IMG/VR virus record: IMGVR_UViG_3300042868_002352
Location: 1-38,022 of that record
DNA from: a virus
Strand: one strand, 5' to 3'
Length of the DNA: 38,022 nt
This document shows positions 1,590-32,874 of the stretch, in pieces. Positions within the stretch are counted from its first letter, which is position 1. Every line of letters begins with the position of its first letter. The notes below the pieces were generated by a model, which had not been told where the DNA came from, made no database searches, and saw only the letters and a list, made by a program, of their open reading frames with translations. A program made the translations under genes and the position numbers.

Positions 1590-2080
1590 TATATAGTTCC
1601 TCCGTCATAGACGATGTTAGCCGCAAACGGCTCAGCATTGTAGTATGCTGGTAATACTTCTAGATCTAAGGACACACCGTAGTTGTCATCTGCGTATAAT
1701 GGGCGTTCTGTGTTATCTGAAGTTTTGTTAGTTTTGAATGTTAGTTTATAAATCCTATTTTCTAAGTTGCTGACTGTGATAGCATCAAAGGTAAATGCTC
1801 CTCGACCGTTGGCAACATTAGCAAACGTCACAGCATAGGTATTGATCGTAGCAACATTATCAGGATCCTGTATGCTGGCCTGCACTGTATATCCAGTGAG
1901 ATTTACCAGTTTCTGATCTTGATTCTTAAATTCTACTATCACAGGATTATCGATACCTTGATAGACTTTTATAGGACGTGTATACACAGGTCTGTTCCTC
2001 GTTTTAATTGTGGGATCAGAATAGTCCAAAATTTGAACAGTGAACTTATTATCATATAAATAACTTGTGATTAGGGGCAC
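1589..2080 (-). CDS. Putative baseplate or fibre-attachment protein
   Basis: A 163-aa protein starting at GTG 2080; no nearby ATG exists in frame. The central part (about 35-145) reads as a beta-rich domain: an IKVYQGIDNPVIVEFKNQD strand pair, then LTGYTVQASI and later IYKLTF. This resembles the N-terminal domain of BppU-type baseplate proteins, in which a linear polynomial-like 'input' strand pattern precedes the fibre. The similarity is my reading of the pattern, not a search result. It is cotranscribed with the two fibre-like genes downstream. A late promoter for the opposite strand lies inside its first codons. Confidence 0.5.
   Translation of the reverse strand: MPLITSYLYDNKFTVQILDYSDPTIKTRNRPVYTRPIKVYQGIDNPVIVEFKNQDQKLVNLTGYTVQASIQDPDNVATINTYAVTFANVANGRGAFTFDAITVSNLENRIYKLTFKTNKTSDNTERPLYADDNYGVSLDLEVLPAYYNAEPFAANIVYDGGTI
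2055..2062 (+). promoter_or_regulatory. T4-type late promoter (exact TATAAATA), plus strand
   Basis: An exact TATAAATA box sits on the plus strand within the first codons of the minus-strand gene that starts at 2080. It is correctly placed to drive the plus-strand gene whose ATG is at 2121, with initiation expected near 2068-2072. This implies late expression by the gp55/gp33-type system. Confidence 0.7.
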
Positions 2081-2120
2081 TTTTAGTCTCGATCCTTATA
2101 AGGTATTTATCGTATACTCC

Positions 2121-2495
2121 ATGGAAGATAGTTATAAGAAATTATTAGATCAATACCCGTTTATCAGCTTCCTGACCTATGGCGGTAATGACTATATAGG
2201 GATCATACAGAACAGTGATGAAATCATCACAACTATCTATGATTTTGCGGCTCTGCGTACCCTATCACAGAAGACACGCTTCTTAGAACTAGCAGATCAA
2301 TGGTGGTGGGAAAGTAATAGACTAGTGCCCATTAACGTGTTTCTAAAGCAGGATTGGATAGAATTTAGAGTTTGTTTGAAAACATTCAACAGCAAGGACG
2401 TGAATATACAGCATGGTCCTTATATCAGTCTTAGAGAAATAGCTAATAAACGCAGTAAACGTAGAAGTATTACACTTGTTCGCAAAGTAAGTTAA
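2121..2495 (+). CDS. Conserved hypothetical protein, late-expressed
   Basis: One of only two plus-strand genes. A GTG at 2067 would lengthen it by 18 codons, but it lies at or before the expected start of the late transcript, so I prefer ATG 2121 (124 aa). The sequence has a DFAALRTLSQKTRFLE helix, an unusual WWWESNR cluster near the middle and a basic C-terminus (KRSKRRS). I recall similar WWWESNR-type proteins in T4-like marine phages but know no function. Its last 26 bases overlap the 3' end of the minus-strand gene at 2470. The late promoter suggests a morphogenesis or virion role (inference). Confidence 0.65.
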   Translation: MEDSYKKLLDQYPFISFLTYGGNDYIGIIQNSDEIITTIYDFAALRTLSQKTRFLELADQWWWESNRLVPINVFLKQDWIEFRVCLKTFNSKDVNIQHGPYISLREIANKRSKRRSITLVRKVS

Positions 2496-3042
2496 GATTT
2501 ACCACAACCAAAGTAGCATAAGCGATCGCGTGTGCTTTCTTAAAACTGTATTCACCCTCAACTCGATCCCATACAGTAGCCGCAACATCCTTCCAACTTT
2601 TACCTATTAGGTGACGTTTGCCTGGACGGATCACTGCTAGGAACATGGCCAGTCTAGGGATAGTATCCACAGGCTCCGGCATTTTAAGCAAGGTATCATA
2701 GTGATTGTTGACGTGTATTAACTGCGCACATATTGAACTATCATATAACTTGGTCCAATCAGGTTCTTGCATGAGACTAACTAAGTGTTCTTCACTCTTA
2801 ACCTGTTTATAAACATGGACATTTAATAAGTCTAGCTTCATATACCCACGAGCTTCTGCATCGTTGTAGTCTAAACTAGCTGATCCTACAAAAGGATCTA
2901 CGGGTATATCTGTAGCATACACACCTGTATTATGTTTAACTAGTTTACCATCACGTATGATACTAGCAGGCGTGACGTTTAACAAGTCTAATACCTGTTG
3001 ACGATCAGCAAAGTCTATGTCAATGTCTGACTGGAATTTCAT
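2470..3042 (-). CDS. Miniature DnaE-like protein (DNA polymerase III alpha core motifs)
   Basis: A 190-aa protein. In order it shows SDIDIDF (5-11), like the DnaE palm PDIDIDF with two catalytic Asp; KHNTGVYATDIPV (36-48), like the DnaE HAGGVVI region; GYMKLDLLNV (66-75), like GLVKFDFLGL with the third catalytic Asp (here D71); AMFLAVIRPGK (132-142), like ALFRPGP; and FKKAHAIAYATLVV (167-180), like FNKSHSAAYA. All three palm Asp are kept, in DnaE order, yet the protein is less than a fifth of the usual DnaE length; PHP, HhH, OB and tau-binding parts are absent. The ATG overlaps the upstream stop as ATGA. Function is unknown; it may be a non-polymerase derivative. Confidence 0.6.
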   Translation of the reverse strand: MKFQSDIDIDFADRQQVLDLLNVTPASIIRDGKLVKHNTGVYATDIPVDPFVGSASLDYNDAEARGYMKLDLLNVHVYKQVKSEEHLVSLMQEPDWTKLYDSSICAQLIHVNNHYDTLLKMPEPVDTIPRLAMFLAVIRPGKRHLIGKSWKDVAATVWDRVEGEYSFKKAHAIAYATLVVVNLNLLCEQV

Positions 3043-3284
3043 AGATATTCTGGTGGTATAAAATCTGGGCCAGGTGTATTGGGTGCGATCCCAATACTTT
3101 CTTGTGATTGTTGGGGTATAGATACTTCAATTCGATCTAGTTGCTCACGTATTTTTGTGATGTCGTAGCCTAGCAGTAATAATTCATTACGTACTAGTGT
3201 GATATCACTTTTAATATCATCAAATAATGCTCTTAGTTCATCAGCGATCACAGCTTCGCCTCCTTCAATATACTCTTTATCCAT
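3039..3284 (-). CDS. Small hypothetical protein with coiled-coil segment
   Basis: An 81-aa acidic protein. Residues 14-55 look helical with heptad-like hydrophobic spacing (LRALFDDIKSDITLVRNELL...IREQLDRIEV). The C-terminal 25 residues are Pro/Gly-rich (NTPGPDFIPPEYL). It overlaps the upstream gene by 37 bp and the downstream DnaE-like gene by 4 bp (ATGA), so the three are probably translationally coupled. A partner role for the DnaE-like protein is conceivable but unsupported beyond adjacency. Confidence 0.6.
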   Translation of the reverse strand: MDKEYIEGGEAVIADELRALFDDIKSDITLVRNELLLLGYDITKIREQLDRIEVSIPQQSQESIGIAPNTPGPDFIPPEYL

Positions 3285-3949
3285 TCAGTGTCCGCCACAT
3301 AATCTTGAAATTTCCTTTGCCAATATTCTGGATCTATCCAAGGAAGAACAACAGTAAGTTGATCATCATTGAGAGTATCCAAGAAGTCAATGCCAGAATC
3401 ACAATTATAAACAATCCAAGGACTAATCCTACCATTAGCGATGTGATGACATACGCGATTAGGATTACCAAACCTAAAATAATCACTAAATCCATTCTTA
3501 AATTCTCCATGTTCATCTGCATAGTCTTGCATTTCCTTAAAAGCACGCTCAAGGGCATCTTGCGTTGCTTCCTTGCGCATATATCCTCTAAGATATTCTA
3601 AATAAACCTTTTCATGTGTCCAATGATCAAGTTTTTTATTTTCTTTAATCACATAGTCAATAAACATCTTTGGATTGACAGCACGTATACCCACCATGTG
3701 ACGACCAAATTTAACAAAGGCACGATAATAGGGACTAGCAACAAAGTCTGTGTATGACTTCATCTTTGCTGATCCCTGTGTTAGCTCATAGAATCGTAGG
3801 TATGCCTGAAGACCAAACTGTACACCAATTTCTTTTTCTTCTTGCCAGCGTCGTTTTTCTTCGCAAAGGTGCACAGCAAGGCTTGATTCCTTGCGGAACT
3901 CCTTACTACAATATTTGCACTTATAGCTCGGCTTTAATTGATTTGTCAT
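3248..3949 (-). CDS. Zinc-finger-containing conserved hypothetical protein
   Basis: From ATG 3949 the protein has 233 aa. An in-frame ATG at 3994 is possible but would deepen the overlap with the upstream gene to 74 bp. Residues 8-31 form a C2H2-like zinc finger (CKYCSKEFRKESSLAVHLC, with C11, C14, H27 and C29 as candidate ligands). The rest is helical and rich in aromatic residues (YLRFYELTQ, YRAFVKFGRH, DYFRFGNPNR, LPWIDPEYWQRKF). No catalytic motif is recognised. The finger suggests nucleic-acid or protein binding. It sits just downstream of the clamp-loader-like gene. Confidence 0.65.
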   Translation of the reverse strand: MTNQLKPSYKCKYCSKEFRKESSLAVHLCEEKRRWQEEKEIGVQFGLQAYLRFYELTQGSAKMKSYTDFVASPYYRAFVKFGRHMVGIRAVNPKMFIDYVIKENKKLDHWTHEKVYLEYLRGYMRKEATQDALERAFKEMQDYADEHGEFKNGFSDYFRFGNPNRVCHHIANGRISPWIVYNCDSGIDFLDTLNDDQLTVVLPWIDPEYWQRKFQDYVADTEWIKSILKEAKL

Positions 3950-4385
3950 CAAGTCCGAGGTTTCGTGCCATGTCTGCAATATCTCGTTTATCATTGATTT
4001 TTGCCAGTAATTCTATTTCATCTTGTTTCATGGTAGGAAATAACTTAGCAAGGAATTTCGTTGCTTTGCTATTACCCTCTTTTTTCTTAGTACCTTGCCA
4101 ATAGTGAAATTGCTTGCCCATGTTTGGACTTACAGTTGTACAACTTAACCACTGTAGTTTTGGATGCTTGTTTAGGTCAAAGAAGTTTTTATTTACACGC
4201 TCATTAGTAGCCATTAGATAATAGGCTTGTAAGTCTTGACTTCCACCTACACTAGCACCATAGCGTAACATTAGATATGTACTAAATGCCTTGCGTTGTT
4301 CATCAGTGAACTTGTCATAGTAAGCACGATCTTTACGATCATATGCGGCCATTTCATTGCCGATGTATAATGGATCACTGCTCAC
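3921..4385 (-). CDS. 62: Probable sliding-clamp loader small subunit (gp62-like)
   Basis: A 154-aa protein. The pattern KAFSTYLMLRYGASV...YYLMATNERVNKNFFDL...HPKLQWL, followed by a basic KQFHYWQGTKKK and a helical C-terminus (DEIELLAKINDKRDIADMARNLG), matches what I remember of the bacteriophage clamp-loader A subunit family (T4 gp62 counterpart). In T4, gp62 forms one subunit of the gp44/62 loader that places the gp45 clamp. No gp44 or gp45 gene is visible in this window, so context gives little support. The assignment rests on family memory, not on alignment to T4 gp62, to which similarity is low. Confidence 0.5.
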   Translation of the reverse strand: MSSDPLYIGNEMAAYDRKDRAYYDKFTDEQRKAFSTYLMLRYGASVGGSQDLQAYYLMATNERVNKNFFDLNKHPKLQWLSCTTVSPNMGKQFHYWQGTKKKEGNSKATKFLAKLFPTMKQDEIELLAKINDKRDIADMARNLGLDDKSIKAEL

Positions 4386-5021: not shown

Positions 5022-5522
5022 TTACCATATTTTACCGTAGTCCACTACTTCACTTTGTCGTGATATATCTTTTACAAAATAAGCACACAATGGTCGTTCG
5101 CCTTCTGTGATAGGTACTGCTAACATCTGTCCAGGTTTGAGTTTTGGAAAGTACCATTTAACATCTTGATAAATGTCTACGATCTCAATAGGTTCAAATA
5201 CAGGTTTGAAACTATCCAAGGGATTAAATGTAAACACACTAAAGCCACGATCGTTGATACTGGTCAATGGTATGACCTCTAGATCACCAAAGTCTGGTTC
5301 ACCAATCAACACCTGCCAATCCACAGGCATCTTAACCAAATTGCCACCAATGTTTAATACCAGGGCTGGGCTATTAAACGATTCCAAAAAGATCAATGGA
5401 ATAAAGAAATAGTCAGGATTCTTTGGATCGCTATTATCTAATATAGCAAAACGAAGATCCTCAACTTCATCCGGAATCTCATTCATCTCATATGCTTGGT
5501 TTTCTAATGTTAATATATACAT
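5022..5522 (-). CDS. Conserved hypothetical protein
   Basis: A 166-aa protein, acidic, mostly beta by pattern (FAILDN, FFIPLIFLE, ALVLNIGGN, VIPLTSIN, FSVFTF). A conserved-looking C-terminal part, VKWYFPKLKPGQMLAVPI followed by ERPLCAYFVKDI, resembles uncharacterised proteins of T4-like cyanophages in my memory. It has no signal peptide or catalytic motif. Its stop lies just upstream of the 51-aa membrane-protein start. Function not assigned. Confidence 0.6.
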   Translation of the reverse strand: MYILTLENQAYEMNEIPDEVEDLRFAILDNSDPKNPDYFFIPLIFLESFNSPALVLNIGGNLVKMPVDWQVLIGEPDFGDLEVIPLTSINDRGFSVFTFNPLDSFKPVFEPIEIVDIYQDVKWYFPKLKPGQMLAVPITEGERPLCAYFVKDISRQSEVVDYGKIW

Positions 5523-6034
5523 TAATTATTTTTCCTTGTTATAATATATCTTCCTGTATCTCTATCTTTGAATCCTTCTATTACTGTTCTATGTAATGGA
5601 AACTGGTCTAAATCCAATGGTGTGGTTACATATTCATCTGTGTAGTTGAACGTGCTGGCAAAATAAACCTTTGGTACATCTATTTTGTTAGCCACAGTGT
5701 TGACAAACTTATGATGTATGTGTCCGTAGTCCCCATCTTCAAAATGTGTTAGAATCAAATCAGCATCAACTACCTGCTTGATCGCAGATTCTGCTAGTTC
5801 CGCTGAAAAACTTAGTTCGTTATTTTCTATATCTCTATAGTCATCTATAAATCCTAAGAACTTGGTTGGTATGTTTCTACTATTCCAATATCCAGATATC
5901 TCCATGGATCTGATATCATCATAGTCATAGGTCAGATAAACGATTGACCATTCATAATCAGGGTGTGCATCAACAAATGGCCGGGCAAATATCACACAGT
6001 CATCTGGATGAGCAACTAGGACCTGAGCTTTCAT
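5522..6034 (-). CDS. PIG-L/LmbE-family deacetylase
   Basis: A 170-aa protein with the family signature AHPDD (8-12), whose His and Asp bind Zn and act in catalysis, and a second metal motif HIHH (105-108). The family removes N-acetyl groups from sugars such as GlcNAc linked to inositol, cysteine-thiol precursors or glycan intermediates. The protein is shorter than many members (about 220-250 aa), so the C-terminal part is reduced. It overlaps the PRMT-like gene by one base. With the adjacent SGNH hydrolase and the glycan cassettes, an amino-sugar substrate is the simplest guess; the actual substrate is unknown. Confidence 0.75.
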   Translation of the reverse strand: MKAQVLVAHPDDCVIFARPFVDAHPDYEWSIVYLTYDYDDIRSMEISGYWNSRNIPTKFLGFIDDYRDIENNELSFSAELAESAIKQVVDADLILTHFEDGDYGHIHHKFVNTVANKIDVPKVYFASTFNYTDEYVTTPLDLDQFPLHRTVIEGFKDRDTGRYIITRKNN

Positions 6035-6942
6035 TAGAAACTAAATCTCCAATCAATAATACTATGATCATACCATGTTACTATATCCTGATCTTTTCTG
6101 CATCTAGACAAAATAACCTTACTTGGATTCCCCCACCAAGTGTCTTTAACATTCATTGAAATATTTTCATGTTTGGCAGTCCAAAATATCACTGCACAGA
6201 TCTCCTGCCCAGCAACTGCATCTTTAGGGATAGTTAGTCTAATATCGTCAATGTTGACCTGCTGATTTAGATCAACGATTATTGGTTCTGTTTCATAGAT
6301 CTTTTCTAATTTAAGATCAGTGAATCTAGGTAGCATGGTAAATAATTTCTGTATACAATTTGCTTTATAAAGTGTATTTTCTAATTTGTGCTGTTGTTGG
6401 AATCCATCGTTTACCAGGGTTTCAAATGTTGTATCAATTTCAATATCAGGTTGAAACTCAAATGCATCTGATCCTGTTTGTACTATTGGGAATATTGGAT
6501 GATTTTTATATACTTCAACTTTAATCTCAAACTCACCAGGTATAAATTTGCCACCATGTTTTCTTGCATGCTCACTGATAGCAATGATGTTTTCATTGAA
6601 TATCTGACTGCCAATGGTTTCACTGACATAGATGTCTGCGGGTATATCTGTGGTTAAAAAATCTGCATTAATAACTTCAATAACTGAATCTAGTCCAACT
6701 TGTTTAATAACATGTTTGGCATAGTCTGCACGACCAGGATCCATTTCAATAGCATAGACTTTTTTAGCGCCAGCTTTTGCAGCCAGAACGCTTAAAAATC
6801 CAGTACCTGTGCCAATATCAACTACAACCTTGTCTTGGACAGATTGTTCGATGGCATTTTTATAAAATACATTACGACCAGTGTCGTTGATCATTGGCAT
6901 GAATATACCGTTGTCTGCAAACCAATTGAAATTTTCTGTCAT
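6034..6942 (-). CDS. PRMT-like class I SAM-dependent methyltransferase
   Basis: From ATG 6942 (overlapping the upstream stop as ATGA) the product is 302 aa; a GTG at 6951 is also in frame. Motif I is VVDIGTGTGFL (39-50), followed by VYAIE with the ribose-binding acidic residue E66. The segment SETIGSQIFNE (107-117) matches the PRMT 'double-E loop' with both Glu at the right spacing of nine (E108, E117). The C-terminal half reads as the beta-barrel of this family, but I see no clear THW loop. PRMTs methylate arginine; here the substrate could be protein or a small guanidino compound. Arginine specificity is not proven. Confidence 0.65.
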   Translation of the reverse strand: MTENFNWFADNGIFMPMINDTGRNVFYKNAIEQSVQDKVVVDIGTGTGFLSVLAAKAGAKKVYAIEMDPGRADYAKHVIKQVGLDSVIEVINADFLTTDIPADIYVSETIGSQIFNENIIAISEHARKHGGKFIPGEFEIKVEVYKNHPIFPIVQTGSDAFEFQPDIEIDTTFETLVNDGFQQQHKLENTLYKANCIQKLFTMLPRFTDLKLEKIYETEPIIVDLNQQVNIDDIRLTIPKDAVAGQEICAVIFWTAKHENISMNVKDTWWGNPSKVILSRCRKDQDIVTWYDHSIIDWRFSF

Positions 6943-7733
6943 AGTCCCCACGTGTCCTTGATAATATTGTAATAGACATTAGCCAAATACTCTTGGCTCT
7001 TAGGATCACCGTGGTAACCAGGATCCTTGTCTACAAATGGATATTCATTAGTAGCATACGCAGGAGTCTGCGCATAGTCTAAAGTTAGATAACCGTCACT
7101 GACTACCTTAGGTATTGCCGCACGTACAGTGTCGCTGGTCCAGAGATTGTTTGCTACCAGTAAAAATGGTATACCACTGTAGTATAACTGCATGATGCCG
7201 TCACGTATGATCCATTCATCCTGTTGACGTTTCCAGTTGCTGTCATATAAAAAGTTTACATATTGTTTAACTGCGGCTTGTGTGTGCTTGTCAATCTTAC
7301 CACTGCGATAAGGATGGTCATAGTTTTCTGCTAGACTAAAAATAGTTTCGCAGATCATGCGATAAGGATTGTTACCATAGTTTACATTATCGATACCAGC
7401 ATTGACGTCGTAGCCATTTAGCAATGACTGATCTTGTAGATGTTGTTGTAAAGGTGTGTTCCAGGCTTTAGGTTCAATGGTCCAATCATATGGTGCGGCA
7501 CTTGCTGGTATTTCCATACGATCGTAGAATGTTGGTGCTATGATAGCAAAGGTTGGTTGTTGACGAATAACTTCATCAATTTGTATTCGTATGCCACCAT
7601 TGCTACATCCTTGACGTGCCAAATTTTCTAATTCCCAATCTAGTTTATCTGCTAGGACTTCTCCGTAGCTAGTACCCGGCAAATCCTTGCTAGGTGCAGA
7701 GTAACTACAACCACAGATCATTAATTTTGCCAA
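6939..7733 (-). CDS. SGNH/GDSL-like hydrolase
   Basis: A 264-aa protein. Block I is MICGCSYS (5-12), with the nucleophile candidate S10; then LARQGCSNGGI provides the Gly/Asn block. DPGYHGDPKSQEYLA (from about 237) gives a C-terminal Asp/His pair at the expected place, followed by a terminal helix. SGNH enzymes hydrolyse or transfer acyl esters, often on glycans. Many phage members with GCSYS act near structural or glycan genes. It overlaps uvsW by 13 bp and the methyltransferase by 4 bp. Substrate unknown; O-acetyl groups on a surface or virion glycan are a guess. Confidence 0.65.
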   Translation of the reverse strand: MAKLMICGCSYSAPSKDLPGTSYGEVLADKLDWELENLARQGCSNGGIRIQIDEVIRQQPTFAIIAPTFYDRMEIPASAAPYDWTIEPKAWNTPLQQHLQDQSLLNGYDVNAGIDNVNYGNNPYRMICETIFSLAENYDHPYRSGKIDKHTQAAVKQYVNFLYDSNWKRQQDEWIIRDGIMQLYYSGIPFLLVANNLWTSDTVRAAIPKVVSDGYLTLDYAQTPAYATNEYPFVDKDPGYHGDPKSQEYLANVYYNIIKDTWGL

Positions 7734-9181
7734 TCTGTTTTCTCCACGATAAAAGGATAGTTAGCGTCTTTATAAAACTGTTTGCGTTTGGTTAAATGCC
7801 TTTTGGCAAACTTACATGTACTTGTTATGTCCCAGATTTGGACGAAGTCTTTGTCTTCCGCTTTACGGATACCACGCCCGATACTTTGGATGACCCTAAC
7901 AAAGCTCTTACCGGGCTCAATAAGCACAAGGTTAAAAACACGAGGAATGTTGATGCCAACAGCAGCAACCCCATAAGTGGCGACAATAACCTTATCGTCC
8001 ATAGTCGCAATGTCGTCATATTGTTCTTTTCTATCATCTGCTTTAGTGCCTCCAGACACGAATACAGCATCTTTAATTTTTTCTATTAGAGCACGTCCTG
8101 GAGCAATACGATCTACTAGTACAAGTGTATTACCTGTCTTACGTATCGACTCTACAAGTTTAGCGATATACTCTAATCTTGCTTCTGTTTCAAGTAAGTA
8201 TCGCAACTCACTTTGATAATCTTTATATTCTACGTGATCGACTAACTGTAGTACGTTTACATGACAGTTAGCTAGTACGCCCTGCTCTTGTAGTTCACTG
8301 GCACTTAACCGTCCAATAACGTCACCTATACTGCACTTTAGGCTGACAAATTCGTAGTCTTCTTTAGGTATTGTGCCAGTTAATCCCCAGCGTATAGGTA
8401 TATGTGCCATTACACCAGTGAGCAGTGTTTTAAGCGCATCTGCCTTGGCCATGTGTACTTCGTCAACCATAACGCAGACCACATCCTGTAAGAACTCACC
8501 GATAGTGATATCCACTTCGTGATTGCGTGATCCTTTTAATAAGATGTTCAAACTCTGCCAAGTACATATAGTATGTGTCTTGCCAAACTCTTTACGGTCT
8601 CCAAAGTAAACTCCAACATCTAATCCCATGTTCTTATAGTCTGCTTCTGTTTGTGTGACCAAACTCTTGTTTGGAACGATGACTATAGTACGTCCATGTG
8701 GTTCACAGCAATAACTTAATGCGGCTGTGATTAGGGTCTTACCTGCGCCTGTGGCAATTTCTTGTAAGCACTGTGGATTCTCAAGGAACTTGTTGATGAT
8801 CTCAACTTGATAATCTCTTAACACGATTGGTTGCCCTGCCATTGGATGTTTGTCAGGCCACATAATATGTTTGAATGTATCTTCTGTTACTTCTTCAAAG
8901 TCATATTGTGTTTTGTAATCACGTAGATCTTCTAGCTCTAGATGATATCCTTGACTATCTAGATAAGGAATGATCTCTGGTAATAGATTAACATAGGTAC
9001 TACCGCCCATTTGGAAGAATGCTATCTTACCATCCCATCTGCCTAGACGGACTGCGGGCAGATAACGTGCACCAGGTATCTCATACTTGAACATATTAGA
9101 TAGTTCTTTGCGTTCATGTAAGTCTAAGCCTTCTATCTTTACATTAACTTCATCTTTAATTATTAGTCGGGCCAAGGCCAT
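7721..9181 (-). CDS. uvsW: UvsW-like superfamily 2 DNA helicase
   Basis: A 486-aa protein, near the length of T4 UvsW (about 500). After an N-terminal DNA-binding region (1-115) come the Q-type motif LRDYQ (121-125), Walker A ATGAGKT (143-149), DEVH (240-243), motif III GLTGT (266-270), and motif VI QSIGRGIRK (432-440). UvsW unwinds R-loops and Holliday junctions and regresses stalled forks; it shifts T4 from origin-dependent to recombination-dependent replication. It overlaps the upstream HARP-like gene by one base (TAATG). Confidence is high from motif set, length and phage context. Confidence 0.92.
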   Translation of the reverse strand: MALARLIIKDEVNVKIEGLDLHERKELSNMFKYEIPGARYLPAVRLGRWDGKIAFFQMGGSTYVNLLPEIIPYLDSQGYHLELEDLRDYKTQYDFEEVTEDTFKHIMWPDKHPMAGQPIVLRDYQVEIINKFLENPQCLQEIATGAGKTLITAALSYCCEPHGRTIVIVPNKSLVTQTEADYKNMGLDVGVYFGDRKEFGKTHTICTWQSLNILLKGSRNHEVDITIGEFLQDVVCVMVDEVHMAKADALKTLLTGVMAHIPIRWGLTGTIPKEDYEFVSLKCSIGDVIGRLSASELQEQGVLANCHVNVLQLVDHVEYKDYQSELRYLLETEARLEYIAKLVESIRKTGNTLVLVDRIAPGRALIEKIKDAVFVSGGTKADDRKEQYDDIATMDDKVIVATYGVAAVGINIPRVFNLVLIEPGKSFVRVIQSIGRGIRKAEDKDFVQIWDITSTCKFAKRHLTKRKQFYKDANYPFIVEKTDWQN

Positions 9182-16623: not shown

Positions 16624-17831
16624 TACTCTATGCTGATAGTTGGAAAGTATTTAATAAACACATCACCTTCACGGTCACGTTTGTTTTTAATATTCTTACG
16701 AATTTCTGTAAAGAAGTTCCACGCCAATGGTACAAATGCTACCTTGGTATTGGTGTAGTCATCTAATTTACCAATTGGCACTACAGGAGTACTCATACCA
16801 GGACTATACAATCCTTGTTTAAGTGGGTTGTCATCAATGATATAATCTAAATGAACTTCACCAAAGTTTAACAATGTGTTGCCTTTGGCGGCCGCGCCAT
16901 AGCCTACAATTAGGTAGTCTAACATTCGATAGTGTATGATTGTTTGTTTAAGATCTTCAACAATAGTACTAGCACGATCAGCATAGGCCAGATATGTATT
17001 CATATCTTGTAGGCCTAGAGCACGTTCTTCTGCTAATACTGCATCAACCTTACTAGTATCTTCAGCTAGTTTCTTAAACACAAACATATAGCTGTTGCCA
17101 TGAATAGGTGTTTTACGAATATCAATTAGATATAAGCCGGCACGCTTGGCCAATGCGCTCATACTGCTGGCATTAAAGAAACTTAGATGTTCATGATAGA
17201 TAGTGTCAAACTCATTGTTACGGATCATGTCTGCTTGACTAGTCTGTATAAACAATACACTAGTGTCACTCATAATCTCTTTACACTGTTGTAAGAACTC
17301 TAATGGATAACTGTTATGAGCAAATACATTCTGCGCTGTGATGATATCTAAGTTTTTATTCTTGTAATGATAATTGTACTTGTCTGTAAAGTAATCACAT
17401 ACTACTTCATGATTAGCATTGCTTAATGGATGTAGGTTCTCAGCAGGGTCAACACCAAATGTCTTTAAGCCTAGAGCTTTGAAACTGTTAAGTTGACTAC
17501 CATCATTGCAGGCAATGTCTAATACTGTTTTAGCATCTGGTGCATAGGTTAATGTTTCTTTAGCAAACCAATCAAAGTAATCACGTAAGGTCTGGCTAGT
17601 GCCACTTACATATAGATAATTCTTAAATAACAAGTCTGGATTAACTGCATGACTTAATTGTAAGTGTGTACAGTCTTCACAGATGTTTAATCGTAATGGG
17701 AATGTTGGTTCATCTTCCTCTGCTGTTTTCTTAAAACTATTGGCCAGTGGTTGCTCGTTTAAGTCTAGGACTAATTTAAGTTTCTCACTGCCACAGCATA
17801 AGCATTCATTAAGTTGTTTAGCGTCTTCCAT
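16623..17831 (-). CDS. Sugar C-methyltransferase (NovU/TylC3 type)
   Basis: A 402-aa protein with the three-part layout of this family. The N-terminal Zn domain has C10, C12/C13, C51 and C54. The SAM domain has motif I VLDIACNDGSQ (103-113). A characteristic HEHLSFF stretch with neighbouring Tyr/His follows, then a C-terminal Rossmann-like domain starting VGYGAAAKGNTLLN. Members methylate a sugar ring carbon of NDP-4-keto-6-deoxy sugars, as in mycarose or tetronitrose synthesis. That substrate could come from the RmlB-like dehydratase two genes upstream. The ATG overlaps the epimerase gene by 14 bp. Family confidence is high; substrate inferred. Confidence 0.85.
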   Translation of the reverse strand: MEDAKQLNECLCCGSEKLKLVLDLNEQPLANSFKKTAEEDEPTFPLRLNICEDCTHLQLSHAVNPDLLFKNYLYVSGTSQTLRDYFDWFAKETLTYAPDAKTVLDIACNDGSQLNSFKALGLKTFGVDPAENLHPLSNANHEVVCDYFTDKYNYHYKNKNLDIITAQNVFAHNSYPLEFLQQCKEIMSDTSVLFIQTSQADMIRNNEFDTIYHEHLSFFNASSMSALAKRAGLYLIDIRKTPIHGNSYMFVFKKLAEDTSKVDAVLAEERALGLQDMNTYLAYADRASTIVEDLKQTIIHYRMLDYLIVGYGAAAKGNTLLNFGEVHLDYIIDDNPLKQGLYSPGMSTPVVPIGKLDDYTNTKVAFVPLAWNFFTEIRKNIKNKRDREGDVFIKYFPTISIE

Positions 17832-18744
17832 AATCTTCTCGTTCCCAATTATAAATTATATATTTGTCTCTCCACTGCGGGGTGGATTGTTCATAACTTT
17901 CTATTAAACTATCTACTATTGTAGCAGGAGTTTCAATAAACGTAAAGTCAAACGTTTGTTCAAATAGTCTGGTATCTAATGCAAAGTCATAGGCATTAGC
18001 AGTAGCACCTCGATCAATGATATCAGCACCAAGTTTCCTACTAACTGCTTCAGCTATCTCGCCAACTGTAGCATTGAAACTAGCAAGATTATAAATGCCC
18101 GGCACTGGTTGCTCAATACAGCGATTTACAGCACGACACAGATCTTCTATACCCAACATAGCACGGCTAATCTGCTTGTTCATTACCTGTATGCCTGTGC
18201 CCATTTGCACACTATGGTACATACTGTTAATCATAACATCAACCCGTAGGTTAGGTGCCCAACCGTTGACTGTACCAAAGCGCAGACCAATTACACGTTT
18301 ACCTTTAAGGTTAGCTATACTCGCCTGTTGGTCTAAGGCATACTTGGTAACATCATAGTTGTTAACCGGAGTGAAGTGTGTATTGGTTTCTTTGTGCTGT
18401 TCACCAGGTGCGCTGTTACCGTAGACACTTGCTGAACTAGCATAGATAACCAATTGGTCATCTAATTTTTCTAACAAGTCTGTAAAGTTAGTAACATTGT
18501 TTAACCACGGACCTGGCAGTGCACCAACACAACTAGGAACACTACTGTGACCAGCTAAGACCACAACTACTTCAAACTCACTTAGTTCTTCACGAGTAAG
18601 TTTATGATAGTCTCTGCGGTCACTGGTTTCATCATGGGCGAACCAACAGATGTCATTTGATTTTACAAAGTGGTGTTCACCTAAGACCTGACGTAGCCTA
18701 GATCCAATGTATCCATTGCCACCTAGAATTAATACTTTCTTCAT
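17818..18744 (-). CDS. NAD-dependent sugar epimerase/dehydratase (extended SDR)
   Basis: A 308-aa protein with GGNGYIGS (8-15) for NAD(P) binding, SSASVYGN (103-110) with the catalytic Ser/Thr position, and YDVTK (130-134) with the Tyr/Lys pair. Length and motifs fit UDP/dTDP-sugar epimerases, reductases and dehydratases. The C-terminal part lacks features that would fix the reaction. In the cassette it probably acts after the dehydratase and C-methyltransferase, for instance as a 4-ketoreductase; that order is inferred. Confidence 0.85.
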   Translation of the reverse strand: MKKVLILGGNGYIGSRLRQVLGEHHFVKSNDICWFAHDETSDRRDYHKLTREELSEFEVVVVLAGHSSVPSCVGALPGPWLNNVTNFTDLLEKLDDQLVIYASSASVYGNSAPGEQHKETNTHFTPVNNYDVTKYALDQQASIANLKGKRVIGLRFGTVNGWAPNLRVDVMINSMYHSVQMGTGIQVMNKQISRAMLGIEDLCRAVNRCIEQPVPGIYNLASFNATVGEIAEAVSRKLGADIIDRGATANAYDFALDTRLFEQTFDFTFIETPATIVDSLIESYEQSTPQWRDKYIIYNWEREDYGRR

Positions 18745-19490
18745 TAGTCAATGATCATCATGCCGTTAGGTGCAATGTTACCCATCAGGCCCACTGTTTC
18801 TAATTCTACAATCTTATCTGCTGGTAAAAACTTAACCATTGAATGCTCAACATCAATATATGCATTCTGATTAAATGTGTTGAACATATTTTGAATAATA
18901 TTATTCAAAACATACAATGTCTCAACTAACATACTAGGAGTAAACGAGTACAGTCTTGTTTGTAGTAAACTAGTAACTCCCGTTACCTGCGGGTTACACC
19001 AACCAGGCTGACGTGTCTTAAAGACATATTTGTCTTTGGTATTTGCATTGTCAAATGCAGTGATGTCAAACTTATCAGTGAGTTGATAACGACCACTTAG
19101 TTTGAAAATACGTGATGTTGCGTTTACTTCTTTCAACAAGTCTTCAGTGTTGTTGATATAAGTCAATGCTTTGATAAGACCCAATACTTCCATTGAGTTC
19201 TTACCAATGTCATAGTTAGTAACATTATTGTGGAAGTGTTGAATGTCTGCATCATCACTGTTGTCAATATAATAGTCAACTGTGTCAATCAACTCTTCAA
19301 ACTCTGCACTGGTATCATTCTGTACATCAACTTTACTGTTGTCTACTAGAATAATCAATGCATCAGGAAGATATTTTCTTGCACTCTTAGCTGTGTCTAA
19401 AGTCTGTTTAATACGATCCTGTGGAGTGTAAATTCCATAGTTGCTGTAAACTGCTGACGTTAATAGTATTGTGTGTTTTTTACTCATCAT
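18744..19490 (-). CDS. Glycan-cassette protein, possible glycosyltransferase
   Basis: A 248-aa protein starting KKHTILLTSAVYS followed by a TP(Q)DRIKQTLDTAKSA helix and LIILVDNSK, as in GT-A nucleotide-binding folds. IFKLSGRYQLTDKFD (about 128-142) is a block I associate with WavE-like and related phage glycosyltransferase proteins. No definite DxD. It lies between the RmlB-like and epimerase genes, with AGGACAA before the ATG. Function is inferred from pattern and context. Confidence 0.5.
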   Translation of the reverse strand: MMSKKHTILLTSAVYSNYGIYTPQDRIKQTLDTAKSARKYLPDALIILVDNSKVDVQNDTSAEFEELIDTVDYYIDNSDDADIQHFHNNVTNYDIGKNSMEVLGLIKALTYINNTEDLLKEVNATSRIFKLSGRYQLTDKFDITAFDNANTKDKYVFKTRQPGWCNPQVTGVTSLLQTRLYSFTPSMLVETLYVLNNIIQNMFNTFNQNAYIDVEHSMVKFLPADKIVELETVGLMGNIAPNGMMIID

Positions 19491-19496
19491 TTGTCC

Positions 19497-20528
19497 TTAT
19501 TCGCAACGTAACCAACGGTCGTTTTTCAACGTCCATTCAACCACTTCACCGATACGTTCTGTTAAACTAACCTTAGGTTCCCAACCTAAACTGCGCATGT
19601 AGTCACCGCTTAGTGCATAACGCAAGTCATGTCCTGGGCGTGAGCTATGGAAGTCAACCATTTCGTACTTCAATTCTTTTCCTTGCGCATCAGCGATAAT
19701 CTGTGCTAGTTGTAAATTGTTAATTTCTTGTTTGCCTACTAGATTGAACTTAGGACAACGTGCATCACCATAGTCTGCTTCTAATTTAGTTGCATCTAAT
19801 CCCAGCAAGAACATCATAGCATCAGCTACATCTGCCGCGTGGATATAGAAACGACTGCCTGGAATAGTTCTAGTAGCATCACTGTGGATAGTAATAGCAT
19901 CACCATCGTTTACCTTACGGATACACATAGGAATAAACTTTTCTGGGTGTTGGCGTTGACCAAACACGTTCATGGTATGTGTGATATAGATAGGTAACTT
20001 GTAGGTATTTTCAAATGCCACTGCTAGTTCTTCACCGCCAGCTTTGGTAGCTGAATATGGGTTTGAACTATTGTAACGATCACGTTCAGCATAGTTAACA
20101 CCATTAGGTGCTGGACCAAATACTTCATCAGTTGAGAAGTAGATAAAACGTTCTAGATTTTTTAGTTTACGGCTAAACTCTAAAATATGACCTGTACCAA
20201 CTACGTTGTCCCAGACAAACTCCATTGGGAATTCGATACTGCGATCAACATGGCTACCTGCGGCCAAGTGTAGAACATAGTTCACATCACCAATGTCACG
20301 TACCACCATTGGATTTAATTCTGCACGTAGATCATGGAATACGATCTTAACACGCTTACGTGTTTCTGTATCAAAATCAGCCATCATATCTGATAGACGA
20401 TTTAGATTACCCGAGAAGTCTAGTCTGTCTAAGCTGACTACGTTCCAATCGGTATTTCTTAAAATATTTTCAATAACGTGGTGTGCGATAAAACCCGCAC
20501 CGCCAGTCACTAAGACGGTTTTTGACAT
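19497..20528 (-). CDS. dTDP-glucose 4,6-dehydratase-like enzyme
   Basis: A 343-aa protein close to RmlB length. It has TGGAGFIAHH (8-17), LAAGSHVDRSI (88-98), the catalytic STDEVFG (132-138; Thr, Asp, Glu), YSATK (158-162; Tyr, Lys) and a C-terminal SSRPGHDLRYAL block typical of RmlB. These enzymes convert NDP-glucose to the 4-keto-6-deoxy sugar, first step to rhamnose and many deoxysugars. No rmlA/C/D is seen beside it, so the host may supply dTDP-glucose. A GGAGA ribosome site precedes the ATG. Confidence 0.85.
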   Translation of the reverse strand: MSKTVLVTGGAGFIAHHVIENILRNTDWNVVSLDRLDFSGNLNRLSDMMADFDTETRKRVKIVFHDLRAELNPMVVRDIGDVNYVLHLAAGSHVDRSIEFPMEFVWDNVVGTGHILEFSRKLKNLERFIYFSTDEVFGPAPNGVNYAERDRYNSSNPYSATKAGGEELAVAFENTYKLPIYITHTMNVFGQRQHPEKFIPMCIRKVNDGDAITIHSDATRTIPGSRFYIHAADVADAMMFLLGLDATKLEADYGDARCPKFNLVGKQEINNLQLAQIIADAQGKELKYEMVDFHSSRPGHDLRYALSGDYMRSLGWEPKVSLTERIGEVVEWTLKNDRWLRCE

Positions 20529-22894: not shown

Positions 22895-23299
22895 TTAGTC
22901 CTTGTGATGTTGCCAAATTTGATCAGTGCCGCCTAGATGGCCCCAGTCACTGTCTACTGTCATTCTACTGCTAATGCCGCCTCTAGGGCGATATTCAATT
23001 TCTATACGAATACGATCTGGTTCGTATACTGCTTTAAGATCTTTATACATAACATCCAATGCACGTTCGTAACTTAATCTAGTGTCACGGTATTGGAATA
23101 GGTATTGCTTGAGACTTTTTAATTCAATAGTCTTAGCATTACCATAAAACCAAATAGTAACATCACCAAAGTCTGGTTGATTTGCGCCACCTAGAAATGT
23201 AAACTCAGGTACGCTAATACGCTGTTCATATCCCTTGGCCGCGTTGGGTAGACTTTTTAGCATGCTACCGTCTATACTATCCCAAAGTTTCTTTTCCAT
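22895..23299 (-). CDS. QueF-like protein lacking the catalytic cysteine
   Basis: A 134-aa protein aligned by eye with type I QueF (preQ0 reductase): [14 protein letters not shown] (31-44) versus [28 protein letters not shown] (59-71) versus ESKSLKLYLFSFR; and RPRGGIS (104-110). The Asp (D43) and the Glu/Lys region are kept. The cysteine that forms the thioimide with preQ0 is replaced by Gly37/Gly38 with a one-residue gap, and the FHE motif reads SYE (76-78). Nitrile reduction is therefore not expected. The tunnel fold may bind a deazaguanine or do something else. No queC/D/E or dpdA is visible here. Confidence 0.75.
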
Positions 23300-31356: not shown

Positions 31357-31432
31357 TGGTACTCCCAACGAGATTCGAACTCGTGTTACCTGCGTGAAAG
31401 GCGGGTGTCCTAGGCCTCTAGACGATGGGAGC
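31357..31432 (-). tRNA. tRNA-Glu (anticodon UUC)
   Basis: A 76-nt cloverleaf with encoded CCA. The acceptor GCTCCCA pairs with its 3' strand, the anticodon loop is CTTTCAC, and the T loop is TTCGAAT. One C-A mismatch is present in the anticodon stem (third pair). Confidence 0.92.
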
Positions 31433-31441
31433 AGTAATCTA

Positions 31442-31615
31442 TTATTTTTCTTTTTTCTTAGGTCGTCCCCAGGCAGCCTGAGGACTTCCTTCTTCTACAC
31501 CGCTGACTCCTCGGGCAATTTGTTGTACGACGCCACCATTTGCTAAAAACTTTTTCATAGCAAGATCTATTGCCTGTGATTCTTCTAACTCTTGTTGTTT
31601 GGTGTCTTTTGACAT
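31442..31615 (-). CDS. Small hypothetical protein within the tRNA array, 57 aa
   Basis: ATG 31615 to TAA 31442. The product has a helical N-terminal half (QQELEESQAIDLAMKKFLANGG) and a basic tail (WGRPKKKEK). The start lies 30 nt from tRNA-Arg and the stop 10 nt from tRNA-Glu, so it fills the gap exactly. An upstream AGGA supports translation. Function unknown; the tail could bind nucleic acid. Confidence 0.65.
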   Translation of the reverse strand: MSKDTKQQELEESQAIDLAMKKFLANGGVVQQIARGVSGVEEGSPQAAWGRPKKKEK

Positions 31616-31644
31616 TTATTATTCCTATTGTTATTAATTCTTAC

Positions 31645-31719
31645 TGGTCCGGCGTAAAGGAATCGAACCTCTATCTAGGGAGTAGAAATCCCCTGTTTTA
31701 TCCATTAAACTAACACCGG
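31645..31719 (-). tRNA. tRNA-Arg (anticodon UCU)
   Basis: A 75-nt cloverleaf with encoded CCA. The acceptor CCGGTGT pairs with ACGCCGG (one G-U), the anticodon loop is TTTCTAC and the T loop is TTCGATT. It reads AGA, a codon common in AT-rich phage genes. Confidence 0.9.
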
Positions 31720-31726
31720 ACTGTTC

Positions 31727-31801
31727 TGGCTACGATGCACGGACTCGAACCGCGACCAAGGGTTTTGGAAACCCGTGTGCTACCATTAACACTACACCGT
31801 A
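31727..31801 (-). tRNA. tRNA-Trp (anticodon CCA)
   Basis: A 75-nt cloverleaf with encoded CCA and discriminator G. The acceptor TACGGTG pairs with CATCGTA, the anticodon loop is TTCCAAA. The outer pair of the anticodon stem is a C-U mismatch. A Gly(UCC) reading would need a 5-nt loop and was rejected. Confidence 0.82.
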
Positions 31802-31803
31802 CC

Positions 31804-31878
31804 TGGTGCGCCTTGATAGAATTGAACTATCACTCCTCCGATTATGAGTCGGACGCTTTACCATTAAGCTAAAGGCGC
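31804..31878 (-). tRNA. tRNA with CAU anticodon (Met, or Ile2 if lysidine-modified)
   Basis: A 75-nt cloverleaf with encoded CCA. The acceptor GCGCCTT pairs perfectly with AAGGCGC, the loop is CTCATAA. It has a fully paired first acceptor base, so it is not an initiator. Elongator Met and Ile2 (AUA) cannot be separated by eye. Confidence 0.88.
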
Positions 31879-31888
31879 AACTTAAAAA

Positions 31889-31976
31889 TGGCGGAAACGG
31901 AGAGATTCGAACTCTCGAAACCTTTCGGTTTGCTTCGTTAGCAGTGAAGTGCCTTCGACCACTCGGCCACGTTTCC
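31889..31976 (-). tRNA. tRNA-Ser (anticodon GCU)
   Basis: An 88-nt class II tRNA with encoded CCA and discriminator G. The acceptor GGAAACG pairs with its 3' strand, the anticodon loop is CTGCTAA, and the variable arm is long. It reads AGC/AGU. Confidence 0.92.
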
Positions 31977-31982
31977 TTGTTC

Positions 31983-32139
31983 ATTAGTATAGAGTTCTCG
32001 TGCTACAGTTGCAACCGTAGCATATGACCCATCGGAAGCTAGCTATCTAGAATTAGTCCGCATATATCATAATATTGATTGGCTGAGAACCCTATACTAA
32101 TAATCCCGCTTACTCTATACGGGGACATTCCGGAATGTC
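31983..32139 (-). ncRNA. Candidate structured RNA in the tRNA array
   Basis: Between tRNA-Ser and the HNH gene lies about 170 nt without an open frame. A 17-bp helix with one mismatch joins 31983-31999 and 32085-32101. It encloses a perfect hairpin (32001-32006/32017-32022). A CCCG/CGGG hairpin (32105-32108/32120-32123) carries in its loop 32112-32119, which is complementary to 31988-31995 and so competes with the long helix or forms a pseudoknot. A 16-bp perfect palindrome follows (32124-32139). It is on the path of the tRNA transcript, so minus strand is likely. No known family recognised; phage tRNA arrays are known to carry such RNAs. Confidence 0.5.
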
Positions 32140-32147
32140 AGCGACTC

Positions 32148-32783
32148 TTAAAAGTTAAGTCTACTTAATATCTCATTTGCGGCTTTTATACGTTTTGGGC
32201 TGTTTGCTAATCCCATAGCACGTAACGCAGGCGTTGCATACTTATGTATCCTTAACATTTCTTCTAACAACTCTAAATTTAATTCTCTTCTATTGATCTT
32301 AATATTCTTAGCTCTATATGTGTGCGTTTGACTGTGGCAATTAGGGCAAAGTATTCTTAAATTTTTTCTATTATTATTAAATGGATCACCATCTATGTGA
32401 TCTATTTCTAAAGTTATAGGTTTGTCTTGCCAATCACTTATACCACACATTTCACATTTGTAATTACTTTCGTGCAATATCCTTTTCTTTAGAGCCTCTC
32501 GGCTCATTTCTTCATATGGTCTATCCCAGGATTTCTTTATCTTAGTTTCCTTAGCTCGACGTTGCATATCATCATAATCATATTTGCTTTTAGCTACTTC
32601 AAACTTGTCTCGTTTTTCTTGTGGTGTTAGGCTGTCGTTATACTTCTGCAAAGTTGCGCTGGTTTTTTCTCGTGATTCTTTACTAAACGTTCTACTGTTT
32701 CCACAACTCCTAGAGCAAAATTTCTTTTCACCCCATTTGCTATAGGCATCAAATTCTTTACCGCATTTTGTACATATTTTCAT
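32148..32783 (-). CDS. HNH endonuclease, free-standing, in tRNA array
   Basis: A 211-aa protein. The N-terminus is a Zn ribbon (C4, C7, C23, C27) of the type seen in homing endonucleases. Next comes a basic helical linker. The HNH core has CEMC (110-113), LEIDHIDGDPFNNNRKNL (125-142) and CPNCH (146-150), with D128/H129, the Asn cluster and H150 as catalytic candidates. The C-terminal part (PALRAMGLAN...) looks like a helix-turn-helix of the NUMOD type. It lies between tRNA-Thr and the structured RNA, so it is a probable mobile gene that invaded the tRNA array. Confidence 0.85.
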   Translation of the reverse strand: MKICTKCGKEFDAYSKWGEKKFCSRSCGNSRTFSKESREKTSATLQKYNDSLTPQEKRDKFEVAKSKYDYDDMQRRAKETKIKKSWDRPYEEMSREALKKRILHESNYKCEMCGISDWQDKPITLEIDHIDGDPFNNNRKNLRILCPNCHSQTHTYRAKNIKINRRELNLELLEEMLRIHKYATPALRAMGLANSPKRIKAANEILSRLNF

Positions 32784-32789
32784 AATATT

Positions 32790-32874
32790 TGGTGCCGGCT
32801 GAGTGAATCGAACACTCTCTATCTTACGAAGCCTGATTACAAGTCAGGTGCAATCCCACTCTGCGCAAGCCGGC
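32790..32874 (-). tRNA. tRNA, anticodon UGU (Thr) with class II-like variable region
   Basis: An 85-nt tRNA with encoded CCA. The acceptor GCCGGCT pairs perfectly with AGCCGGC, the anticodon stem CCTGA/TCAGG is perfect, the loop is CTTGTAA (UGU) and the T stem GAGTG/CACTC is perfect. Fourteen nt lie between anticodon and T stems (with a CTT/AAG mini-stem), where Thr tRNAs normally have 4-5. The D loop GAGTGGGAT also looks class II. Reading the anticodon as GUA (Tyr) would break the stem. Confidence 0.8.

Follow-up and report, generated by a model that had tools for sequence, protein, structure and literature searches.

Does a viral gene that keeps the catalytic motifs of the bacterial replicative polymerase DnaE, at a small fraction of its length, encode a polymerase, a part of one, or a protein that only resembles it? 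We examined this question for a gene in IMG/VR virus record IMGVR_UViG_3300042868_002352, of which positions 1 to 38,022 were analysed (hereafter the window). The likely answer is a part of one: the gene would encode the C-terminal half of a minimal nucleotidyltransferase of the C family (Pol III alpha) that is built from two chains and serves as an accessory polymerase in a T4-related, probably jumbo-type phage.

A short gene with the DnaE active-site motifs

The gene is a minus-strand open reading frame with an ATG start and 190 codons (Table 1). The palm and fingers motifs of DnaE that a first-pass annotation had picked out, with no strand given, were all found on this frame in the order claimed, and its estimate of under a fifth of the normal length was accurate, the encoded protein (hereafter the C half) having 16% of the length of E. 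coli DnaE (190 versus 1160 aa). The C half resembles bacterial DnaE in motif order, in the catalytic Asp residues, in the counterparts of K553 and H511, in the RPGP and FNKSH motifs, and in its predicted fold. In contrast to DnaE, it is missing the PHP domain, the N-terminal palm with GxGRGS, the thumb, most of the fingers, and the beta-binding, OB and tau-binding parts, and so does not have the make-up of a complete single-chain DnaE (PHP, full palm, thumb and full fingers). The GRGS, YQEQ and LRRAMGKK motifs of complete DnaE or Pol III alpha proteins are likewise absent from its 190 residues. The reported removal of accessory domains was therefore correct, but the loss of the N-terminal palm had been overlooked: the reading frame begins at approximately DnaE position 400, just before D401, and hence the initial part of the palm, including GxGRGS, is missing.

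Table 1. Positions of the gene under study, its motifs, and other features of the window, with conservation among related loci where recorded.
Feature	Positions	Strand	Remarks
Convergent 142-aa gene, PHROG 11637	2067–2495	+	Overlaps 3' end of C-half gene; opposite strand in 151/154 loci with room
C unit: likely C-terminal half of a minimal, split DNA polymerase III alpha	2470–3042	−	Palm strands with three catalytic Asp and shortened fingers module
FKKAHAIAYA, residues 167–176	2515–2544	−	DnaE FNKSHSAAYA; H171 and Y175 invariant
I138-R-P-G-K142	2617–2631	−	DnaE RPGP; I138, R139, P140 and K142 invariant
K69-L-D71	2830–2838	−	E. coli K553-F-D555; D71 is third catalytic Asp, invariant
KHNTGV, residues 36–41	2920–2937	−	H37 and G40 correspond to E. 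coli H511 and G514; invariant
SDIDIDF, residues 5–11	3010–3030	−	D6 and D8 correspond to E. coli D401 and D403
81-aa gene directly upstream	3039–3284	−	4-bp overlap with C-half start; poorly conserved sequence, 35/168 loci (tblastn)
248-aa gene, PHROG 11058	3248–3994	−	C2H2-like zinc finger below Pfam's cut-off; upstream on same strand in 162/165 loci with room
154-aa gene, PHROG 11758	3921–4385	−	Kept in block, 156/163
166-aa gene, PHROG 11279	5022–5522	−	Kept in block, 128/133
PIG-L type deacetylase and PrmA-like methyltransferase	5522–6951	−	Between PHROG 11279 and UvsW, inside replication block
UvsW-like DNA helicase	7721–9181	−	Upstream end of block, 32/33
Two genes matching PHROG named nucleotide-sugar epimerase	17818–20528	−	
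GTP cyclohydrolase-like gene	22895–23299		
tRNA gene cluster	31357–32874		

Homology, conservation and selection

A chance motif match is ruled out by the similarity of the C half to PHROG 11778, annotated as "DNA polymerase", at E 1.1e-60 over residues 2–189 of 190. Three full DnaE/PolC-type PHROGs gave weaker matches. Searched with the sequence by itself, Pfam, NCBIfam and PDB returned nothing useful (none in Pfam, a marginal DnaE match in NCBIfam), and a C-half profile reached DnaE in the PDB at E 0.038 only. In the profile-profile match to DnaE, H37, K69-x-D71 and R139-P140 fall on the equivalent DnaE residues.

Homologues covering at least 80% of the C half were detected by tblastn in 90 phage records, all at below 60% identity, mostly from jumbo myoviruses related to 121Q, RaK2, GAP32, CBB, PA5oct/Paride, Atu_ph07 and Phosso, and also from two 141-kb Alishewanella phages; identity to the counterparts in cultured phages is 33–51%. 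IMG/VR contributed at least several hundred further intact homologues. Among 148 unique sequences, counting those that cover each site, the residues proposed at first pass as the catalytic aspartates are kept in every case (D6 147/147, D8 147/147, D71 148/148), and they align with E. coli D401, D403 and D555. Because some loci were found with a DIDID pattern, the figures for D6 and D8 partly reflect the choice of matches, whereas D71 lies outside every IMG/VR search pattern. Also invariant are H37, G40, P47, K69, L73, W96, I138, R139, P140, K142, H171 and Y175; in E. coli DnaE, invariant residues of the C half align with D401/D403/D405, H511, G514, K553, D555, R639, P640, H760 and Y764. Comparison of the window gene with 14 near relatives with measurable dS gave dN/dS values of approximately 0.04–0.13. 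The gene is clearly widespread and under strong purifying selection.

Predicted fold of the C half

Structure prediction, suggested at first pass as a check for a Pol-beta-like palm, gave a confident AlphaFold2 model (mean pLDDT 93.5, pTM 0.85) from an alignment of 96 homologues built from the window and IMG/VR loci only. The best eleven PDB matches of this model are all DnaE (Pol III alpha) chains, from entries 4iqj, 7pu7, 2hpi, 3e0d, 5fkw, 2hnh, 5fku and 5fkv (E 0.0099–0.44, probability 0.51–1.00), and unrelated proteins follow only from E 1.6 upwards; matches in BFVD are to DnaE-type phage polymerases. In the model, D6/D8 and D71 lie on or beside strands 7–11 and 69–74, respectively. By this prediction, the C half has a Pol-beta-like nucleotidyltransferase palm as in solved Pol III alpha structures.

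A second gene carries the missing part of the palm

The portion of the palm missing from the C half is encoded by a separate gene in related phages. When four complete phages with a C half were searched with PF07733, one such gene was identified in each (4/4), encoding 169 to 180 aa with G[VL]GRGS and ending in LDxxEFL[KR] or similar, at a distance of 31 to more than 180 kb from the C half. Profile searches found this N half (around 172 aa, with the motif GxGRGSSVAS) in all seven other named phages examined (7/7), such that all 11 named phages carrying a C half also carry an N half, the two genes being 11 to more than 180 kb apart. In IMG/VR, where a single-sequence query found nothing and a four-sequence alignment succeeded, GxGRGS is present in all 79 unique N halves. 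The N-half profile matches E. coli DnaE residues 321–395, and the N-half model (pLDDT 93.5) has only Pol III alpha or PolC chains among its best 16 PDB matches.

The two proteins abut at a single position of DnaE. Exactly at FL[KR], aligned to the FERFLN of DnaE, 71 of the 79 N halves stop; DnaE itself runs within a few residues from FERFLN to PDFDVDF, where the C half (PDIDIDF) starts. The chain is thus interrupted, in nearly all cases, in the loop that precedes the catalytic strand. Of 78 N halves scored, 77 have Glu at the position of the DnaE-invariant R390, a near-fixed charge reversal right at the split point.

Co-occurrence was also assessed on long environmental contigs; C-half contigs too short to span the distance from one half to the other are uninformative in this respect and were left out of absence counts. 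Seven of the eight N-half contigs longer than 200 kb also carry a C half. The eighth, a linear 359-kb record, has neither a C half nor its usual neighbour PHROG 11058, and the C-half region is therefore probably missing from the record. Conversely, an N half was found on one of two C-half contigs longer than 200 kb. PF07733 and profile searches found no N half in the window, as is to be expected at 38 kb, nor was one present on a 94-kb contig from a relative with 74% identity; for the phage represented by the window, the N half is thus presumed from the pairing seen in its relatives.

Alishewanella phage Slicko01, whose 141-kb genome is well below jumbo size, possesses both halves approximately 11 kb apart, with a clamp loader near the C half, and the split enzyme is thus not restricted to jumbo genomes. 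In 121Q, Paride and one IMG/VR contig, the N-half gene precedes a gp44/RFC clamp loader by a few genes; in 121Q and on the contig, a gene for a GroES-like co-chaperonin intervenes.

Gene neighbourhood

Around the C half, a strongly conserved block of genes extends from UvsW to PHROG 11637; it is common to the window, 121Q, Atu_ph07, Paride and IMG/VR loci (Table 1), and is followed in named phages by a primase and a DnaB-type helicase. In nearly every relative PHROG 11637 overlaps the end of the C half or comes to within a few bases of it, neighbouring genes otherwise being co-directional. The protein of PHROG 11058, with its single C2H2-like zinc finger, is a candidate partner subunit of the C half. 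On one 277-kb contig, PHROG 11058 is still present some 170 kb from the C half. We rejected the possibility that the gene is a full dnaE broken up by misassembly or a frame error, since the window holds no PF07733 match or further DnaE part, and the same 190-aa gene recurs with the same neighbours in hundreds of contigs. The first-pass expectation that the phage would encode its own family B polymerase is borne out in relatives, with such an enzyme in all 14 related genomes checked.

A probable split polymerase and its alternatives

Homology, the conserved active site, the fold, purifying selection, the split point and co-occurrence are established and support the reading of the gene as one half of a split polymerase. 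As to mechanism, the GxGRGSSVAS loop-helix of the palm would come from the N half, whose gene would lie in another part of the genome, and the strands bearing D6/D8 and K69-x-D71, together with a short helical stub of the fingers, from the C half; the two would physically assemble to rebuild one palm of approximately 360 aa. D6, D8 and D71 would bind two Mg2+ ions, and nucleotides would be added to a DNA 3' end. With YQEQ and LRRAMGKK lost, no thumb, and Glu in place of R390, catalysis may be altered or weak. In vivo, the enzyme might act in repair, gap filling or second-strand synthesis, a role that fits alongside the family B enzyme of the phage.

The loss of the fingers motifs and thumb, the reversed charge at R390 and the constant presence of a family B polymerase are also what might be expected of a non-catalytic structural or regulatory subunit, in which the DnaE-like fold would serve as a DNA- or protein-binding replisome module, or as a mimic of the kind raised at first pass that binds host clamp, tau or DNA, without polymerisation. 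We regard this as unlikely, given that the three metal-binding Asp residues, K69 and the GRGS of the N half show little or no variation, although a mere mimic would have no use for them. Furthermore, the clamp- and tau-binding parts of DnaE are exactly those that are missing, leaving no obvious basis for competition for host DnaN or tau.

The Pol-beta-type "GS" motif holds the incoming triphosphate and defines Pol-beta-type nucleotidyltransferases. Its location in the N half argues against the C half alone being a minimal nucleotidyltransferase with a separate job for the N half, as do the exact abutment of the two proteins and their co-occurrence in every named phage. We consider such a stand-alone enzyme highly improbable, despite the confident fold predicted for the C half by itself and the large distances between the genes. 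The "minimal nucleotidyltransferase" of the first-pass annotation was accordingly right as to DnaE homology and the catalytic triad but incomplete, half of the palm residing in a second gene. Finally, its other suggestion, a decaying relic (here of a host-acquired dnaE), accords with the short length and many missing domains but is effectively refuted by the low dN/dS, and further opposed by the invariant catalytic residues, the hundreds of intact homologues in a conserved block, and the lack of a truncated full-length dnaE beside the C half.

Returning to the split polymerase, a more specific proposal, which we put forward as possible though doubtful, is that the pair makes up the smallest C-family polymerase known (approximately 360 aa in two chains, with no thumb, almost no fingers and Glu at R390), with altered chemistry (gap filling, terminal transfer or primer extension), working with the phage clamp loader and subunits from the conserved block such as the PHROG 11058 protein. 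The clamp loader is included because the N half adjoins it.

Relation to known phage polymerases

A split minimal Pol III alpha was described by Iyer et al. 2021 (PMC7824862) in "group 2.2" jumbo phages, with a suggested role in repair, gap filling or second-strand synthesis beside the family B enzyme; enzymes of this kind are therefore already known, and a C-family gene is not as unexpected as had first been thought. The gene studied here agrees with that description in gene family, size, motifs and, in relatives, the accompanying family B polymerase, and differs in that the window is a 38-kb environmental fragment with the C half only. Earlier papers noted one Pol III alpha-like gene each and not the complementary one: a truncated Pol III alpha of 172 aa in phage CBB (CBB_328; PMC5259590) and gp316 of Atu_ph07 (PMC6102473). 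Both are probably N halves, CBB_328 fitting in size and in its "Pol III alpha" label. A marine survey found PF07733 in approximately half of one jumbo-phage cluster. C-family polymerases are also encoded by group 3.2 phages (for example Bacillus phage G) and by phages such as nickie, FADO and Izzy, but these are full-length single-chain DnaE proteins of about 1,100 aa, unlike the split two-gene enzyme. No activity test of the split enzyme was found in the literature searched, which excluded most subscription journals. New in the present study are the split point, the near-invariant residues, the co-occurrence counts, the conserved block around the C half, and the placement of the N half by the clamp loader in three genomes.

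The pairing of a stripped, two-gene polymerase of bacterial type with a family B polymerase of archaeo-eukaryotic type bears on the origin of the C family, and on the kind of second polymerase that large phages require. Every catalytic residue is retained across hundreds of environmental homologues, and two small proteins are thus enough to test directly what makes up the minimal active core of a C-family polymerase.
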